A stretch of 64,000 nucleotides of DNA from Kordiimonadales bacterium IMCC3096 (lineage in GTDB: Bacteria > Pseudomonadota > Alphaproteobacteria > Minwuiales > Minwuiaceae). The notes beneath the pieces are model-generated. The model was not told the origin of the DNA and made no database searches. It saw only the letters and a list, made by a program, of their open reading frames with translations. Shown here one piece after another: positions 1-9,143 of the stretch; the stretch's first letter is position 1; every line of letters starts with the position of its first letter. A program made the translations under genes and the position numbers. Location of the stretch: NCBI GenBank assembly GCA_016865035.1, contig CP018227.1:1644001-1708000 (forward strand), given 5' to 3'.

Positions 1-1487
1 CGCTGGTCGATATCGAAGTTCACCGGCAGGAACATTTCCCGATCCGTACCCTTCAGGTTCGTCGTCAGGAACTTGGTCTGCAGGTTGAACAGCTGTTCAT
101 CGTACTCGATCAGACCTGCCTGGACATCCGCCGAGTGCTGGTCCGCCATGTCACCGGCACTGTCGACATAACCCGACTCCCAGATGCGGTTGCCATCCGG
201 ATCGGTCAGCGCGACGTTCAGCCAGATTTCCGGCTGGGCGCCAAGGCTGCCCGAAGGCAGGTTGTGCCCGGAGTTGATGTTGGTGACCAGATAGTTGAAG
301 TCGAAGTCCTGACCGACCCGCGGGCTGCCATCGAAGAACGGACCATCCAGATGGCTGCCGTTCTCCATCACCGCGCGGCGCAGTTCCCGCTTGTACTCGA
401 GACCTTCGATGTTCTCCTCGATGATCTCACGGGCCTCGAAGCGGTCGTCTTCCGAATCCCAGACTTCAGGGAACTTGACCTCGATCTCGCCATTGTAGAC
501 CTTTTCCTCGAACTCCTCGGTGCCCCACCCGGCGCGGTAGTCGAACTGCAGCCATTCATCAATGGTCCAGTTCTCTGCCGCAGGGTTGTGCGGGAAGATG
601 CCCGGGTGCGCGATCGGATAACCAGGGCCGTAGAAGGCATGGTTGTGACGGACACGGTCAGGATTGATCTCCTCACCATTCACGACAGCAGCCGGGCCGC
701 GGGCATAGCCGTTCGGCAGGCCCGGGTCCTTGCCCATGTGGCATTCCTGGCAGGTGACGCCAGCCGCATTGGCCGGGCTGTCACGATACTGGTCCCAGAC
801 AACCTCCAGCTTGATGCCGAGATTGACCGCCACCTGATGGCAGCTGACACAGAATTCCGACTCGGAGATCTGCGTGAACTTCACCACTTCCGTATGGATC
901 TGGTTGCCACGCTCCTCGTCGCTGGTTGCGACGCGATAGAAGCTCTTGTCGTCCAGAACCTTCTTCAGGCCTTCGCCGTCGGAATTGGTGTAGACCGGCG
1001 AATAGATCTTGCCCGGCTCGATGCGGCGCTCACCGTTTGCCTTGGCGTAGGTATCCTTCACGCGGTGGCAGGTGATGCAGGTGATGCCCTCGCGGGAAAC
1101 CTGGCTGCGTTCCCAGAGCGGGGCCGCACGGCTTTCACCGATCGTCGTGCCGACACTCTGGTGACAGCGCACGCAGAAGGTGCCGATCGTGCCCTGGGTC
1201 AGGTTGGTGATTGCCTGCTCGAACTTGTGGAACATCGGGGAAATCGATGCATAGGCATGGTTCGAAGACGACCATTCCTTGTAGATTTCCTCATGACATG
1301 CCGCACATTTCGAAGCACTCGGGAACACTTCCTCAGAGAAGAGTTCCGTATGGGCTGCGTCGGCGGCACTGGTCTCCTGCGCGTCAACCTGCGTTGACAC
1401 GCTGAAGAACAGCACAGCTGCGAACAGCGAAAGAAACAGACGGGCCGACTTCGTGGCTACACGATGGCCCTCAAACGCGTCTAACAT
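1..1487 (-). CDS. Multiheme cytochrome c (c554-like family), C-terminus beyond the window
   Basis: I read this frame directly on the complement: ATG at 1487, open to the left edge, so the 3' end is missing. A basic start and hydrophobic stretch (about residues 12-35, ending VDAQ) form a signal peptide, so the protein is exported. Five CXXCH heme sites follow: CAACH near 61, CVRCH 105, CITCH 137, CVSCH 213 and CQECH 246. The C-terminal half has no heme motif in view and contains SGHNLPSG, typical of the beta-rich domain at the end of c554-type multiheme cytochromes. An ideal AGGAGG lies inside the last codons of the upstream decaheme gene, whose stop is two bases before this ATG, so the two are translationally coupled. 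Likely a periplasmic electron carrier or terminal reductase/oxidase of the locus; the substrate is unknown. Confidence 0.88.
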   Translation of the reverse strand, partial: MLDAFEGHRVATKSARLFLSLFAAVLFFSVSTQVDAQETSAADAAHTELFSEEVFPSASKCAACHEEIYKEWSSSNHAYASISPMFHKFEQAITNLTQGTIGTFCVRCHQSVGTTIGESRAAPLWERSQVSREGITCITCHRVKDTYAKANGERRIEPGKIYSPVYTNSDGEGLKKVLDDKSFYRVATSDEERGNQIHTEVVKFTQISESEFCVSCHQVAVNLGIKLEVVWDQYRDSPANAAGVTCQECHMGKDPGLPNGYARGPAAVVNGEEINPDRVRHNHAFYGPGYPIAHPGIFPHNPAAENWTIDEWLQFDYRAGWGTEEFEEKVYNGEIEVKFPEVWDSEDDRFEAREIIEENIEGLEYKRELRRAVMENGSHLDGPFFDGSPRVGQDFDFNYLVTNINSGHNLPSGSLGAQPEIWLNVALTDPDGNRIWESGYVDSAGDMADQHSADVQAGLIEYDEQLFNLQTKFLTTNLKGTDREMFLPVNFDIDQ

Positions 1488-1489
1488 CC

Positions 1490-3514
1490 TCAACCTCCTT
1501 CCCTGCCGGTTTCAGATTTTCCCTGGGCTTGATGCTGAAAACCCATCGTCCGATTGAAACCTGGCTCCAGGTGGTACTCATGACAAAGCTGACAGTCCTG
1601 CCGGACCTTGCCCGCAGTATGACACTGCGTGCACGTTTCCTGCGAGACCGGCAGGAAGCCCGGAGCGAATTTCGTTGCGTCGTGTTGCTTGTATGACGCA
1701 GCGAACTCCGCCTGCAGATCCTGCTTGTGGCACGTCGTGCACAGGGTGCCCGGCCCAAGCAGGTTAACATGCGGCCTGTGGTCGTATTCGACGTACGGGC
1801 GATCAGTCACAGATTGATACCCCCATTCCACTTTCAGGCCAGTGATATTCTCGGCTGCTTCCGACCCGCCGTCGGTGACTTGGGTCACAGCGTGGCATTT
1901 CGTGCAGTTACCGAGACCGAATTCGGAGGTCAGCAGGTCGCTCAGTGCCGCCGCCTGCTCGATCACCACATCGTCCGCTTCGGCTGCCTTCGCGGCCTGT
2001 TCGGCATTCATCGCGAAGTCGAACCAGGCGCGGGCGACCGGATCGGCGTGACCACTCGGCTGATAGGTGACGGCCAGGCCATTCGATGACCAGCCGCCGC
2101 CGCGGACCTCGCTCGGCGATTCATGCTCGATCTTCTGCATCCAGGCACAGGCTGCCTGACGCAGGAGTTCACCATCCAGACCGGCGAGCATCATGCCTGT
2201 GCGGTGATCGCCGGGCAGTGCATCGATCCGGTCGAAGATTGCATCGACACCGGATTCAGCCAGTTCGGGATAGAGCGCGCCGATGGCATCCAGGTAGCCG
2301 TCCGGATCATCGTTCGCGACCCCCAGGGTCAGCGCGAGCGCCGCCGGAACATTGTCGCCATTGTCCTCGTAGAAATACTCGTCGGGCTCCAGCTCTTCCA
2401 GTTCCCCGGACTCCGCGGCTTCCCGCAGCAGTTCCACTTCCTCGGGCGTCGGGGCACAGAGTTCCGCCACCGCGTCAGGATCGAACGGGTCTTCCTCCAT
2501 GTAGGGCACATTGATGATCGCAAGCCGACGGTCGACGATTCCACTCAGATGGCAGGAAGCGCAGTTCTGGTCGAAACTGCCCGGCGGCACGGTCAGGCCG
2601 GCCTTCTCGATCTGATGGCAGTCCACACAGCCACGCGTCTCGCCAGCCGGAAGCTTCTCCGGAAAATGCTTGCTGAAGTGGCTTGTGTGATCGAAGGCAA
2701 TTGCCGGACGCATGTCGTGCGGAAAACGGTCGCCGAACGCGGGATGGTCCTTGCCGAAGGACTTGATCGACTGCACGTGGCAACTGTTGCACTGGGCATC
2801 GCGCATCGGTGCGATATTGGCTTCCTGACCCTTGTGCTCCGTGTGGCACATCACGCAGTCGGTCTTCACGTTGGCACTCGGCGAATCAGCCGCGAAGGTT
2901 GCCCCGGCCGCGGCAGTGAAGGTCGCATTGTGCGGCGACGTCGGTGAGCCACCGAAACTGTGGCAGTCGACACAGCTCTCGCCGACCGACTGGTTGGTCA
3001 CGAAGGCATTGGCCCAGGCGACGACGCCCTTGCCATGGTTCTCGTGACAGGCCGCGCAGCCCTTTTCCTCCAGCGCGAAGTTGGAATGCGCACCCGATAG
3101 CGTGCCCGGGCTGATCGAGGACAGGACTGCCTTCTCACCGACGAAGGAATCCGGCGAAAAGTGCAGGAATGCGCCGATGATCGCGATGACGAAGGTCGCT
3201 ACCAGCCAGGAGATCTGCTGGCGGCGGCGGCGCAGCGACGGGCGCGGCTTGCACGGCGGATGCGACTGACAGCAGGAGCCGTCGGGCAGCGGTCCATCCT
3301 TGCACGGCCCGCCGGCACTCGGCGGCCGACGGCATTCCCAGCGGTCACCGTTCCGGAACGGCCGGCACTCGGTCGTACCGCCGCACGAGCCATCGAAATT
3401 CGGCCCGCGGCTGCAGGGTTTGCCGAACGCGCAGGCCCGCCCGCAGACATAGGGAAACGTCGGACGCTCGTAGGCGCTCTTCTGGTAACTGAAGCGATCG
3501 GAGTCTGTAATCAT
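1490..3514 (-). CDS. Membrane-anchored decaheme cytochrome c with Cys-rich cytoplasmic N-terminus
   Basis: 674 residues. Residues 1-100 hold ten cysteines (24, 28, 34, 44, 50, 61, 71, 81, 82, 88), partly in two GP-x-x-DGSC repeats (37-44, 74-81). An RRRR stop-transfer signal and a single membrane helix (about 101-119) put this head in the cytoplasm. The rest is periplasmic with ten CXXCH sites, at 153, 181, 220, 242, 296, 318, 537, 592, 628 and 641; some are followed by extra His (CHENH, CHTEH, CHEYH) as in cytochrome c3/c7-type modules. A heme-free acidic stretch (about 325-530) separates six N-terminal from four C-terminal hemes. Its ATG overlaps the stop of the cytochrome b-like gene (ATGA). 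Inferred role: relay from the membrane subunit to periplasmic cytochromes. The head could bind Fe-S or zinc; no known fold is recognised. Confidence 0.87.
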   Translation of the reverse strand: MITDSDRFSYQKSAYERPTFPYVCGRACAFGKPCSRGPNFDGSCGGTTECRPFRNGDRWECRRPPSAGGPCKDGPLPDGSCCQSHPPCKPRPSLRRRRQQISWLVATFVIAIIGAFLHFSPDSFVGEKAVLSSISPGTLSGAHSNFALEEKGCAACHENHGKGVVAWANAFVTNQSVGESCVDCHSFGGSPTSPHNATFTAAAGATFAADSPSANVKTDCVMCHTEHKGQEANIAPMRDAQCNSCHVQSIKSFGKDHPAFGDRFPHDMRPAIAFDHTSHFSKHFPEKLPAGETRGCVDCHQIEKAGLTVPPGSFDQNCASCHLSGIVDRRLAIINVPYMEEDPFDPDAVAELCAPTPEEVELLREAAESGELEELEPDEYFYEDNGDNVPAALALTLGVANDDPDGYLDAIGALYPELAESGVDAIFDRIDALPGDHRTGMMLAGLDGELLRQAACAWMQKIEHESPSEVRGGGWSSNGLAVTYQPSGHADPVARAWFDFAMNAEQAAKAAEADDVVIEQAAALSDLLTSEFGLGNCTKCHAVTQVTDGGSEAAENITGLKVEWGYQSVTDRPYVEYDHRPHVNLLGPGTLCTTCHKQDLQAEFAASYKQHDATKFAPGFLPVSQETCTQCHTAGKVRQDCQLCHEYHLEPGFNRTMGFQHQAQGKSETGREGG

Positions 3515-4329
3515 AGCAGATACACATGCACCAGAATGATGTGCCAGATCATCACCAGAAATATACCGACGGCGAGAGGCACGTGGAAAAGAAGCCAGAT
3601 CTTGAGAAACCCGTTCACCGCATAGGCGAAATCAATGCGGTTCTTGATCTGCGCCAGATCCTCGAGCTGGCGCAGATAGGTTTCTTCCGTTTCGTCGACA
3701 TAGCGCCGCATGGCGGTGAATTCGCGCCTGATCCAGGCCCGGCCCGACTGCGCGCCGAAGAAATGGCTGAACATGAACCGCGGACGCCGGAAGAACCAGG
3801 CAAGGGTTTCGATGTAGTACTGCGCCAGCGTGTCCGAGGCGGCCTTGTCGGCGGCCTCCTCGACAATCGATTCGGCCTTGTCGCGGATGTCAGAGAGCTC
3901 GTTCGGAATGCGCTCCCAGATGATCTCCATGCCGTTGTCGGTCAGACGCTTCGGCATGATTCGCTGCAGCCAGTAACCGAGGATGCCTGACAGGCTGACC
4001 AGATAGAACAGCGCCGCGAACAGCTGCTCGTAGGCACCATCGGGCCAGAACACGCCATTGGTATGCACGAAGAACACGGCGATCGCGAAAATGCCCGCGA
4101 CGCCATGTGCCGCCGTCCAGTAGGCGCCGCGCCCGAGCGGTATCATCGACAGGCGCTTGCGCATGTTGAACAGGGTCAGAAAGACGAAGATGCCGGCAAG
4201 CGTGTAACCGGTGACAATGGCGGGCTCGCCATTGTGCAGCCAGGTCTGCCACGCATTCCAGGCAACGAGGATGAAGCCCGCGATCGCCGCGAGCCAGAAG
4301 ATGATGAGAGCGCGGTGCAGGGACCTCAT
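3511..4329 (-). CDS. Cytochrome b-like integral membrane electron-transfer subunit
   Basis: 272 residues with five hydrophobic helices: about 7-24, 37-54, 70-95, 102-124 and 240-270. A charged, soluble loop of more than 110 residues (125-238) sits between helices 4 and 5. H75 and H89 lie in helix 3 and H249 and H263 in helix 5, each pair 14 residues apart. That is the spacing expected for bis-His b-type hemes across the membrane, so up to two hemes b are plausible (inference). It starts inside the stop of the Fe-S protein gene and ends inside the start of the decaheme gene, both ATGA overlaps. It is therefore the middle gene of a tightly coupled operon and probably carries electrons between the cytoplasmic Fe-S partner and the periplasmic hemes. 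I cannot place it in a named cytochrome b family. Confidence 0.75.
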   Translation of the reverse strand: MRSLHRALIIFWLAAIAGFILVAWNAWQTWLHNGEPAIVTGYTLAGIFVFLTLFNMRKRLSMIPLGRGAYWTAAHGVAGIFAIAVFFVHTNGVFWPDGAYEQLFAALFYLVSLSGILGYWLQRIMPKRLTDNGMEIIWERIPNELSDIRDKAESIVEEAADKAASDTLAQYYIETLAWFFRRPRFMFSHFFGAQSGRAWIRREFTAMRRYVDETEETYLRQLEDLAQIKNRIDFAYAVNGFLKIWLLFHVPLAVGIFLVMIWHIILVHVYLL

Positions 4330-6002
4330 TGATAGGGACTCCTGAACGGATCCGGGCCGCGGAAGTCGACACGGCGCAGGGCGTCATGCGGACAGGCCCT
4401 CTGGCAGGCCGGGCCACCCGGATTTGTTGAGCAGAAATCGCACTTGGTCGCCTTCATGATCGGCTTGTGCTCGTCATCGACCAGCGGCTCGCCCGAAAGG
4501 TTCGCCACCTGCACCAGACGGATATTGTCGTAGGGGCAGGACGCCGCACAGGTGCCGCAGCCGATGCAGGTGTCATCATTGATGACGACCGAGCCGTCGT
4601 GCATGGAGCGATGGATCGCCCCTGTCGGACAGCCGATCATGCAGACCGGATCAGCGCAGTGCATGCATGAATTGGCGACCATCCAGTTGTCGAATGTCTG
4701 GCCGTGCCGGATGAACCGCGGGTTGCCGCCATGCGTCGAGGCGCAGGCCCGGACACAGTCATCGCAGCGGGTGCAGCGGTTCAGGTCGATCAGCATCGAC
4801 CGGGTGCCATTGATGTAGCGTCGCCCGACGGCCCATTCCTTGAGCGCGTCGGCGCTGATCTCCTCACCGGCCTGATCCTTCAGGCTGGTCCTTGGCGGCG
4901 CCATGTCGGGGAAGACGAACTCCTCCAGCACCTGGCGCGGAATGCGCAGCAGATCGACATAGCCGAGGGCCGTGAGGGAACTGCCGAAGACGATATCCGG
5001 GTCCTGATTCTTCCAGGCGTGATAGAGCTCCTCCAGCCCGAAGAAGTCCCCCGCGCCCAGATAGGTAAGCGTGCGCTCGCCATTGCCGAGATGGGTCGAG
5101 ACCCGCGCGAACCCGGCCCGCACCATCAGGATACCGTCGGGATAATCGCCCTCGTTCGCGATCGGGGTGCCATGCTCCATCTCCCGGCCCTGAGCCAGCA
5201 TGCGCTTGTAGCTGGTGTGCCAGTCGAAGGCGCCGTGGGTCTCGAACAGGGTCCTGTCCGCCACCTTCTTCAACTGCTCAGGTGACAGATGCTTGAACAT
5301 CGGTGATTCGGAGAGGGCATTGCCCAGCGCGTTGTTGCGATAGGCGGTGTCGATCTTGGTCTTCCAGGTGGGGTCGAACCGGCGCAGTTCGCGCAGTCCC
5401 TGCCAGCGAATCTCCAGCACCCGTGCCTCGGTCTCGGCAAAGACGGTTGCGGTCCGCGGAATACGGCCGAGCGCGGCAAGCTCACCGAAGATCATCTCCG
5501 GGCCGAGCTGCGCCGTCTGATGCTTGTCGAGAATGACCGGAATGTCCTGCAGGAACGATGTCGCCCCGCCGGCCGACGAAGCATGCACCTGCTGCGCCGC
5601 ATTGTTGTAGCGGTCCGGGTCGCGCACTTCGGGGCGCCACGAATTGCGCCACAGCTGACTCAGCGCCTCGAAGAAGCCCTTCTTGGAGGCGCTGGCGCGA
5701 CCGAGCAGGTTCTGGGGCAGATCCGGACTGATGACGACGCGCAGGTTGCCGTCGAGAATCAGAAAGGCCGAATTGCCGTAATCCCCTTCGCGGACGACGA
5801 TGTCGCCGGGCTGGAAATTGATGACCCTGGTATCATTGCCCAGGATGCCGCGCAGCGGCGTGTTTCCCGGGAACCGATCTTCGTCAATATCCCCGAAGAT
5901 GGGATATTTCATCAGTTCATCAATGGTCTCATCGGTCATGTCCGGCCCGAACGGTGTGGACCACCGTTGCGGACGGGCCATCGTCTCGACGGCTGTCACC
6001 AT
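4326..6002 (-). CDS. Cyclic-nucleotide-binding / tetra-[4Fe-4S] ferredoxin fusion protein
   Basis: 558 residues, no signal peptide, so cytoplasmic. First cNMP domain about 60-205: PGDIVVREGD near 65 and a phosphate-binding cassette FGELAAL...RIPRTATV near 172-187 with the canonical Glu and Arg. It is interrupted by an insertion at about 95-165. Second cNMP-like domain about 230-365: IANEGDYPDG near 281 and GDFFGLEEL near 318, with a degenerate cassette. Residues 405-540 form a HybA/NrfC-type ferredoxin module with four cysteine sets: 410/413/416/420, 446/449/454/458, 479/482/485/489 and 521/524/533/537, enough for four [4Fe-4S] clusters. A GGAGGG lies 10 bases before the ATG. It is followed with overlap by the cytochrome b-like gene. 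Inference: a cyclic-nucleotide-gated electron donor or acceptor for the membrane cytochromes. Confidence 0.88.
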   Translation of the reverse strand: MVTAVETMARPQRWSTPFGPDMTDETIDELMKYPIFGDIDEDRFPGNTPLRGILGNDTRVINFQPGDIVVREGDYGNSAFLILDGNLRVVISPDLPQNLLGRASASKKGFFEALSQLWRNSWRPEVRDPDRYNNAAQQVHASSAGGATSFLQDIPVILDKHQTAQLGPEMIFGELAALGRIPRTATVFAETEARVLEIRWQGLRELRRFDPTWKTKIDTAYRNNALGNALSESPMFKHLSPEQLKKVADRTLFETHGAFDWHTSYKRMLAQGREMEHGTPIANEGDYPDGILMVRAGFARVSTHLGNGERTLTYLGAGDFFGLEELYHAWKNQDPDIVFGSSLTALGYVDLLRIPRQVLEEFVFPDMAPPRTSLKDQAGEEISADALKEWAVGRRYINGTRSMLIDLNRCTRCDDCVRACASTHGGNPRFIRHGQTFDNWMVANSCMHCADPVCMIGCPTGAIHRSMHDGSVVINDDTCIGCGTCAASCPYDNIRLVQVANLSGEPLVDDEHKPIMKATKCDFCSTNPGGPACQRACPHDALRRVDFRGPDPFRSPYQ

Positions 6003-6201: not shown

Positions 6202-7179
6202 CTACTTGTAGGTAGAGGGCGCCGGCAGCATCGAACCGACCTGGCCGGTCAGATCCATCTGCTCGCTGTAGATCTTCGCCACCAGAGCGCGGGCATTGGC
6301 CTCGCTCGGGTCCGCGATCAGCGCCTCGGCCTCCGGCAGACCGGTTGCCTTCAGCGCCGCCTTGGCCTTCTCCGCACGCTCCTGCTGCACACCGACATAC
6401 TTGGCATGATCGGTCTTGCCCATGGCGTTGCTGGCCTGAACAAGCGAGGCAGCCTGACCGGTGACGAACCAGCGGGACTTCTCGGCCTCGCTCATTTCCT
6501 CATTGTCGGTCGCGCTGTTGTAGAAGCGGTGACGCACCTGACCCTGGCTGTACTGCACCAGCTCGAAGGACGCCTTCAGCGGATGACCCGCGTCGAGCAT
6601 CTTGCCGGCAGTGTCGCCATCCAGGCTGTCCCGCGCCATGCCGTGGCAGTTGAAGCAGTTCGCGGCCACGTCGAAGTTGATGTCGGCAGGCATCGCGGGG
6701 ATGTCCTGGCGCCAGCGCGGCCAGCGCATGCCCGCGTCACGGGACTTCTGATACCGCTCGTTCTTGTGGGCATCGGATTCGTCAGCCTTCTTGGTGCCCT
6801 TCGGCCCATAGACATTGTGAATCTCGATGAACTCGGAACCCGGGCCGTGACAGCTCTCGCACGACGGGCCGAAGTTGTTGCCGACACGTCCGCCGGGCTT
6901 CTTCGGCGCCTGCGTATAGTGACACTGGCCGCAGGTGTCGGAGCGCTTCATGCTCCGCTCGCCCAGCGCATCCGTGACCTTGTCGGCAAGATCCCGCTTG
7001 TGGATATCCTTGTACGACTCGGCGTGCGGCGTGTTTTCCCACACCTTGTATTCCGGCGAATGACAATCCTTGCAGGCATCGGGTCCGACATTGGTCGGCT
7101 GCGCGTTGACCGCAGCACCTGCCACCATGAAGCCTGCCGCCGCGAACAGCGCCAGGCCGAATTTGCGTAGTCCAGACAT
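6202..7179 (-). CDS. Periplasmic tetraheme cytochrome c (cytochrome c554 family)
   Basis: 325 residues from the ATG at 7179. This start is chosen because MSGLRKFG followed by a hydrophobic core and AVNAQ makes a clean signal peptide, and AAGGGG lies upstream; the reading frame runs further upstream but without a signal-like sequence. Four CXXCH motifs: CKDCH at 36, CGQCH 83, CESCH 107 and CFNCH 175, in the order and spacing of c554-type tetraheme proteins. The heme-free C-terminus is helical and rich in Ala and Glu. It is the first gene of the leftward redox cluster and is divergent from the TPR gene at 7384, so the promoter should lie in 7180-7383. Likely a soluble electron shuttle for the decaheme and pentaheme partners; the physiological donor or acceptor is unknown. 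Confidence 0.87.
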   Translation of the reverse strand: MSGLRKFGLALFAAAGFMVAGAAVNAQPTNVGPDACKDCHSPEYKVWENTPHAESYKDIHKRDLADKVTDALGERSMKRSDTCGQCHYTQAPKKPGGRVGNNFGPSCESCHGPGSEFIEIHNVYGPKGTKKADESDAHKNERYQKSRDAGMRWPRWRQDIPAMPADINFDVAANCFNCHGMARDSLDGDTAGKMLDAGHPLKASFELVQYSQGQVRHRFYNSATDNEEMSEAEKSRWFVTGQAASLVQASNAMGKTDHAKYVGVQQERAEKAKAALKATGLPEAEALIADPSEANARALVAKIYSEQMDLTGQVGSMLPAPSTYK

Positions 7180-8021: not shown

Positions 8022-9143
8022 GTGAACCATAAGCACCTGCTCGCTGGTGTTGCAGCTACTGCGCTGCTGACCGCCGGCTCCGCGTTTGCTGCGTCGCATA
8101 GTGGCGACCAGCTCCAGGCTCAGGCCGCCATGATCGACGCTCTGTCGAAGAAGGTGGAACAGCTGAGTGCCAACCAGGACGGCGTTGCCAAGGGTGTCAA
8201 GGGCGTCAGCCTGAAGGTGTCCGGCCAGGTCAACCGCGCCGTGATGTTCGTCAGCGACGGCAATGACAAGTCCGCGTTCAACTATGTTGACAACGACGCC
8301 TCTTCGACCCGCGTTCGCTGGGATGCCTCGGCCAACGTTTCCGATTCCACCAAGGTCGGTACCCGTCTCGAGATGGAAATGGAATCCAACACGTCCGCTG
8401 GTGCGGTCCTGAACGGCAACGCCGGTGGTAACGCTTTCGTTGCCCGCCATGCGTATGTCTACATCCAGGGCGGCTTCGGCACGCTGACCACCGGTCAGCA
8501 GGGTGAGGCGACTGAAGGCCTGCTGCACAGCTCCTTCAACTACGCGTCCCTGGCCGCGATCAACCCGGAAGACACCACCGGTATCGCCAACGCCGGCGTG
8601 AACTTCCTGTCGTTCGGTGACGGTGGCCGTCAGGATGCGATCCGCTATGACACCCCGAGCTTCGGTGGTGCCAAGGCATCCATCTCGACCCGTGACAACG
8701 GTGAAGTGACCGCTGCCATCCGTTATGCCGGTCAGGTTGCCGGTCTGGGCGTTCTCGCTGCCCTTGGCTACGAAGCCAACCCGGGTGCCGGTAACGATCC
8801 GCTGGTCGCCGGTTCCATGGGCATCAACTTCGGTGTTGTCGCGCTGAACGGCTCCTTCGGTACCGAGCTGGATGACGACAACAACGACCGTTTCTACTAC
8901 GCCCTGGGCCTCGCCCATAAGGGTTCGTATGTGGACATGGGCCCGACCTCGCTGGGCGTGCAGTACATGTCCAACAACGGTGGCTTTGACGGCCAGGGCA
9001 ACGTGTACAGCGTTGGCTTCGGTCTGGTGCAGGGTGTCGCGGCTGGTGCCGAGGCCTATGCCCAGCTGACCTTCCACGGTGGTAACGAAGGCGCCGTCGG
9101 CGACGCCGTCGCCAGCATGGTTGGTATGCGCGTCAAGTTCTGA
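8022..9143 (+). CDS. Outer-membrane porin (Gram-negative porin family)
   Basis: 373 residues starting at GTG 8022, eight bases after a perfect AGGAGGG. The signal peptide ends SAFAASHS. A short coiled-coil (about 28-60, QAQAAMIDALSKKVEQLSANQ-like heptads) is followed by alternating beta-strands rich in Gly, Asn and Asp. It ends with an aromatic residue, MRVKF, the Omp85-recognised C-terminus of porins. Codon use is highly biased (GTT, GGT, CTG), unlike its neighbours, which suggests strong expression. It forms general diffusion pores for small hydrophilic solutes; substrate preference cannot be told. Its TGA overlaps the ATG of the small lipoprotein gene, and a strong terminator follows that gene, so the two form one transcript. 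Confidence 0.9.
   Translation: MNHKHLLAGVAATALLTAGSAFAASHSGDQLQAQAAMIDALSKKVEQLSANQDGVAKGVKGVSLKVSGQVNRAVMFVSDGNDKSAFNYVDNDASSTRVRWDASANVSDSTKVGTRLEMEMESNTSAGAVLNGNAGGNAFVARHAYVYIQGGFGTLTTGQQGEATEGLLHSSFNYASLAAINPEDTTGIANAGVNFLSFGDGGRQDAIRYDTPSFGGAKASISTRDNGEVTAAIRYAGQVAGLGVLAALGYEANPGAGNDPLVAGSMGINFGVVALNGSFGTELDDDNNDRFYYALGLAHKGSYVDMGPTSLGVQYMSNNGGFDGQGNVYSVGFGLVQGVAAGAEAYAQLTFHGGNEGAVGDAVASMVGMRVKF

Follow-up and report, generated by a model that had tools for sequence, protein, structure and literature searches.

Can a bacterial second messenger act directly on a protein that carries electrons, rather than on transcription? Where cyclic nucleotides are known to control respiration in bacteria, they do so by way of transcription factors. 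The question is raised by a gene at 4326..6002 on the minus strand of the window (the whole 64,000-nucleotide stretch of DNA that was analyzed), the strand that also carries the other cluster genes within the window. The open reading frame is complete, begins with ATG downstream from a GGAGGG-like sequence that resembles a ribosome-binding site, and encodes 558 amino acids. Its product has tandem cNMP-binding (CNB) domains followed by a C-terminal ferredoxin with 16 cysteines for four [4Fe-4S] clusters. The Pfam cNMP_binding model matches with E=1.1e-26 in three stretches that represent two domains, the first in two pieces; the PF00027 score for the whole protein is 93 bits against a cut-off of 27.5. 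Several Fer4 and other four-iron ferredoxin models match residues 441-542, and the helix-turn-helix domain of CRP/FNR transcription factors has no Pfam match in the protein, whose C-terminus is the ferredoxin. No signal peptide (Tat and Sec signals were both considered) or transmembrane segment was found, and the N-terminus is not hydrophobic, with a highest 19-residue mean of -0.25 in the first 60 residues. The fusion is therefore cytosolic, which places it in the compartment of cyclic nucleotides.

Full-length homologs with 40-65% identity are present in 20 of 289 Alphaproteobacteria genomes, in 10 further genomes of the same phylum outside the class, and in metagenome-assembled genomes labelled Zixiibacteriota and Planctomycetales. 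Because they recur in this way, the fusion is not a product of chance. An earlier reading made from the sequence alone had described two cNMP-binding domains and a ferredoxin in one reading frame, and the Pfam matches, the 558-residue frame and the full-length homologs bear this out. An apparent TAG codon in two of the homologs (G080 and G195) was taken to be an alignment overrun past the natural stop, because the aligned proteins reach the normal C-terminus. A search of a plasmid collection yielded no relatives.

Whether this protein could respond to a ligand depends on its CNB domains. The first domain, CNB1, opens with residues ~55-92 (5727..5840), which were recognized by Pfam PF00027 and by a PDB profile match to PKG. 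It is interrupted by an insert at residues 93-162 (5517..5726) and resumes at residues ~163-206 (5385..5516), which are followed by a near-invariant RWQGLR motif. The second half holds the phosphate-binding cassette FGELAALGRIPRTATVFA at residues 172-189 (5436..5489), which includes Glu174 and Arg183. The insert of about 70 residues, which the sequence-only reading had already noticed, is placed in the hairpin immediately preceding the cassette strand; it is common to all relatives of the window type and moderately conserved (LGR..KG..QLW.N..PEVR...FLQDIP).

No part of CNB1 is better conserved than the cassette. Among 28 relatives at 40-95% identity, the glutamate is kept in 27 and the arginine in all 28, the sole exception being a methionine in place of the glutamate at locus L032. 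Thus the earlier statement that the first domain retains both residues holds, and loss of the cassette in close homologs, which had been named beforehand as a finding that would count against direct action of a second messenger on the protein, was looked for and not seen. Per-column entropy among 22 diverse sequences is 0.70 bits for the cassette, compared with 1.22 and 1.03 for the two halves of CNB1, 2.06 for the insert, 1.68 for CNB2, and 2.00 for the cassette-equivalent positions of CNB2. When the Glu/Arg pair was compared with random pairs of CNB1 columns, 6% of pairs were as conserved, which is only suggestive of selective conservation because much of CNB1 is conserved. By the presence of both residues, CNB1 is predicted to be competent for ligand binding. 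The residue that follows the arginine varies among relatives (T, S, A or N), and a preference for cAMP or cGMP therefore cannot be read from the sequence.

The second domain, CNB2 (residues ~240-365; 4908..5285), was identified by Pfam, alignment and fold match, and has lost both cassette residues. At the equivalent positions, glutamate occurs in 0 of 22 sequences and no arginine is conserved; the loss extends to every relative of the window type. Structure prediction, which had been proposed as a check, was carried out with AlphaFold from seven sequences and gave a weak model (mean pLDDT 50.8) in which both CNB folds can still be recognized. In this low-confidence model, residues 18-226 and 219-405 each resemble CNB structures with Z of about 14-15, both matching PKG, PKA-R and the M. 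loti CNB domain, and the top Foldseek matches of the model are tandem PKG and PKA-R. The insert, with pLDDT below 50, flanks the putative ligand site. Like PKA regulatory subunits and PKG, the fusion places tandem CNB domains N-terminal to the part that would be regulated, and its CNB1 shares the PRTATV cassette with PKG. It differs from both in that its output is a ferredoxin rather than a kinase, only the CNB1 cassette is intact, and CNB1 carries an insert.

The ferredoxin occupies residues 401-546 (4365..4802). All 16 cysteines of the fusion lie within residues 410-537 and form four motifs, in order Cx2Cx2Cx3C, Cx2Cx4Cx3C, Cx2Cx2Cx3C and Cx2Cx8Cx3C, just as expected from the earlier count of four clusters. 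The same reading had called the domain HybA-like, and the ferredoxin fold and four-motif layout justify the term, but orthology to HybA does not hold. HybA is the exported (Tat) ferredoxin subunit of hydrogenase-2. In NCBIfam, the ferredoxin part scores best against AegA, DmsB, HybA and HydN, in each case well under the cut-off (56.5 of 263 bits for HybA), and the low score together with the lack of a Tat or Sec signal rules out a HybA ortholog. The fusion thus has the 16-cysteine, four-cluster layout in common with the HybA, NrfC and DmsB subunits, whereas it is cytosolic, has no export signal, is joined to CNB domains and falls under every curated cut-off. In a profile search of the PDB, the best sequence match of the ferredoxin is HycB3 of HDCR (7qv7), with E=2.9e-24.

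In dozens of bacterial genomes, the fusion gene is clustered with genes for a putative electron wire that leads from NADH across the inner membrane to multiheme cytochromes. Directly downstream in the window is a gene for an inner-membrane protein of 272 aa with 4-5 transmembrane segments (3511..4329), whose start shares four bases with the stop of the fusion; the next two genes likewise overlap. These encode a decaheme c-type cytochrome of 674 aa (1490..3514), with a Cys-rich N-terminal domain, one transmembrane helix and 10 CXXCH motifs, and a pentaheme cytochrome of 593 aa (five CXXCH; 1..1493) that runs off the left window edge and is complete as L010:9712-11493. A tetraheme cytochrome c554-like protein with a signal peptide and four CXXCH is located at 6202..7179 (its frame is open to 7359, and the ATG at 7179 is preferred). 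Beyond the window edge are an outer-membrane barrel of ~500 aa (L010:8103-9641) and an FAD/NAD/2Fe-2S reductase (L010:6738-8018). All seven, the fusion included, recur among the 24 loci compared, although this type of barrel and pentaheme was not found near L056-L058 and L061, which lie in the phylum outside the class.

No Pfam model matches the membrane protein. However, all of the 28 sequences, including those of a distant sister type, share His 75, 89, 249 and 263 (numbered as in the window protein), which form two pairs with a spacing of 14 in two helices. Diheme b cytochromes classically bind their hemes through such an arrangement. One sister protein also gives a weak match to cytochrome b561, and we predict from these residues that the membrane protein is a diheme cytochrome b. 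Among the other partners, the reductase shows similarity to flavohemoprotein over the FAD/NAD part (273 bits, under the cut-off) and to a 2Fe-2S domain, the pentaheme resembles ExtKL (NF040886, 2.4e-15), and a low-confidence model of the barrel (pLDDT 48.9) is all-beta and matches porins with E of about 1e-9. Multihemes with 10, 5 and 4 CXXCH beside an outer-membrane barrel recall the porin-cytochrome conduits of the Mtr/Ext type, and to judge from these components the cluster is probably an extracellular conduit. It is distinguished from Mtr/Ext systems in that all matches fall under the family cut-offs and that the predicted electron entry at the inner membrane is by way of NADH, Fe-S and diheme b components, where Mtr/Ext systems use a quinol oxidase (CymA or CbcL, for example).

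The tie between the membrane protein and the CNB domains is close. A profile search found the membrane protein in 39 of 289 Alphaproteobacteria genomes, and 38 of these also carry a tandem-CNB ferredoxin (24 recovered by the fusion-homolog search as well, 13 by reading loci, and G120). Two genomes had at first appeared to hold the membrane protein without a CNB partner. In G120, the conduit genes (L107) and a Pyr_redox-CNB-ferredoxin gene (G120:C7:45686-48058) are on different contigs, the only separated case seen; the lone exception, G224, is a draft of 450 contigs. Among the 289 genomes, none clearly has a conduit of this kind that lacks CNB domains. At L059 (G290), the tandem-CNB ferredoxin and tetraheme are present, but a downstream b protein and decaheme were looked for and not found, which may reflect either a rearrangement or an assembly break.

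Searches with the window protein also yield proteins of ~800 aa in which a Pyr_redox domain, found at L066, L067 and L070, precedes two CNB domains and a four-cluster ferredoxin. In these relatives, both CNB cassettes are intact in 19 of 19. Their genes are followed by the same kind of b protein and then by a decaheme with an FHA domain, and in one case the same pentaheme (60% identity) and barrel (47%) are present as well. A third arrangement occurs at a planctomycete locus (L063:3690-11468), which encodes a NuoE-NuoF fusion, a NuoG-like/CNB/CNB/ferredoxin protein, a b protein, a decaheme and a tetraheme. In the tree, the window type forms one clade (100/99) and the Pyr_redox type another (100/100), and L063 is on a long branch whose placement is unsure. 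Three NADH modules thus surround one core: a Hmp-like FAD/NAD/2Fe-2S protein in trans, Pyr_redox in cis, and NuoEF with a NuoG-like part. This comparison indicates that the NADH module changes while the tandem-CNB ferredoxin, b protein and decaheme stay together.

We therefore favor a reading in which a transmembrane electron conduit from NAD(P)H to multihemes takes its input through the fusion, as a cytosolic unit gated by a second messenger; to this reading we assign a probability of about 0.55. It is favored because the cassette and the cluster are conserved, the genes co-occur and the sister architectures share a core, features that, like the domains and the heme ligands, can be read in the sequences themselves. 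Ligand binding, gating, electron direction and the identity of the final acceptor are the parts that we infer. In the proposed scheme, NAD(P)H would reduce the FAD/2Fe-2S reductase of the cluster, and the four [4Fe-4S] clusters of the fusion would relay the electrons to the 272-aa membrane protein with its two b hemes. The decaheme, tetraheme and pentaheme c cytochromes would receive them next, and the barrel would probably lead them on to the outer membrane. When CNB1 binds cAMP or cGMP, the helices that follow the cassette, in the RWQGLR region, would move. CNB2 would serve as a structural relay without ligand, and the resulting change in how the clusters dock or are spaced would switch electron flow. 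Reverse flow, with electron uptake to NAD+, is also conceivable. The messenger is likely made by the cell itself, because its genome has 16 class III cyclase matches and eight other genes with CNB domains. Counting against the proposal are the degenerate CNB2, the insert beside the ligand site and the methionine at L032; moreover, a conserved cassette can bind another nucleotide.

It is also conceivable, if unlikely, that the CNB domains are purely a scaffold that docks the ferredoxin to the b protein or the reductase and binds no small ligand. CNB folds often have a structural role, the insert may offer a surface for docking, and CNB2 has dispensed with its cassette throughout the window type; yet the best-conserved stretch of CNB1 is its cassette, both cassettes persist in all the Pyr_redox relatives, and a scaffold does not need the phosphate arginine. 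Quite unlikely is a role in which CNB1 binds a cyclic nucleotide that controls assembly, localization or stability of the complex and not electron flow: domain order and gene overlap do fit a complex subunit, and the FHA domain of the sister-type decaheme is cytosolic and of a kind usual in protein docking, but in every one of the three architectures the CNB domains lie next to the clusters. Least probable is another ligand for CNB1, such as c-di-GMP or a nucleoside as in some CNB proteins. The variable residue after the arginine leaves room for it, and trypanosome PKA is reported to bind nucleosides (PMC10959531). However, cyclic phosphate and ribose are bound through the same canonical Glu and Arg, and the cassette is similar to the consensus of PKG and bacterial channels (PMC2246266, Table 1).

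Fusions of CNB domains with oxidoreductases were listed before. The 'Bact_Pyrredox' CNB family 13 (Kannan et al. 2007, Table 1; PMC2246266) comprises tandem CNB domains tied to a pyridine-nucleotide, NAD(P)H oxidoreductase, with the cassette GEMGLISGRRRGATVRA as in L066-L070, and its table mentions neither ferredoxin nor cytochromes. The members found here end in a four-cluster ferredoxin and adjoin a b protein and decaheme. The window fusion shares the tandem CNB domains, but it has no Pfam match to an N-terminal Pyr_redox domain, is accompanied by a separate FAD/2Fe-2S reductase in the cluster, has a degenerate CNB2 and a CNB1 insert, and belongs to its own clade. The tandem-CNB ferredoxin without Pyr_redox, its cluster and the gating hypothesis appear undescribed, and no description of a CNB-ferredoxin/multiheme cluster was found in the open-license literature; the joining of CNB domains to an oxidoreductase was itself on record. 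The idea of the sequence-only reading, direct action of a second messenger on an electron carrier, gains from the gene context and the sister types with both cassettes intact, and gating is the part that stays conjectural.

A broader statement, that widespread respiratory conduits running from NAD(P)H through four [4Fe-4S] clusters, diheme b and multiheme c to the outer membrane are switched post-translationally by cAMP or cGMP via tandem CNB domains built into a ferredoxin, is tentative and falls somewhat short of an even chance. Second messengers gate ions in CNG channels, whereas here one would gate electron flow directly. If the gating proposal is true, the probably extracellular conduit would come under immediate and reversible control from a sensor placed within its electron path, which would also provide an electrical read-out of a second messenger and explain what the 'Bact_Pyrredox' family may be for. 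The near-absolute co-occurrence with the diheme b protein and decaheme makes the idea directly testable.

Several smaller observations concern the cytochromes and their surroundings. CRP- and FNR-like sites show no excess over chance in the window, and none is at the operon start. The decaheme begins with a conserved Cys-rich domain (window 3230-3450) that has about eight conserved cysteines and CxxGPxxxGxC repeats and precedes the transmembrane helix; it is probably cytosolic and might hold a further metal site or serve in docking. The FHA domain stands at this place in the sister type. In a survey of Gallionellaceae, 27 of 87 iron oxidizers were listed with a 'forkhead-associated protein' of ten hemes (PMC10734462), which, we infer, may be the sister-type decaheme. 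In MarineAlpha9, the decaheme (L007:8004-10526) carries a long acidic tandem repeat, DDEIDLG, between heme groups. On the strand opposite to the cytochrome cluster, the translation of a reading frame at 8022-9143 (plus strand) looks like an outer-membrane porin.
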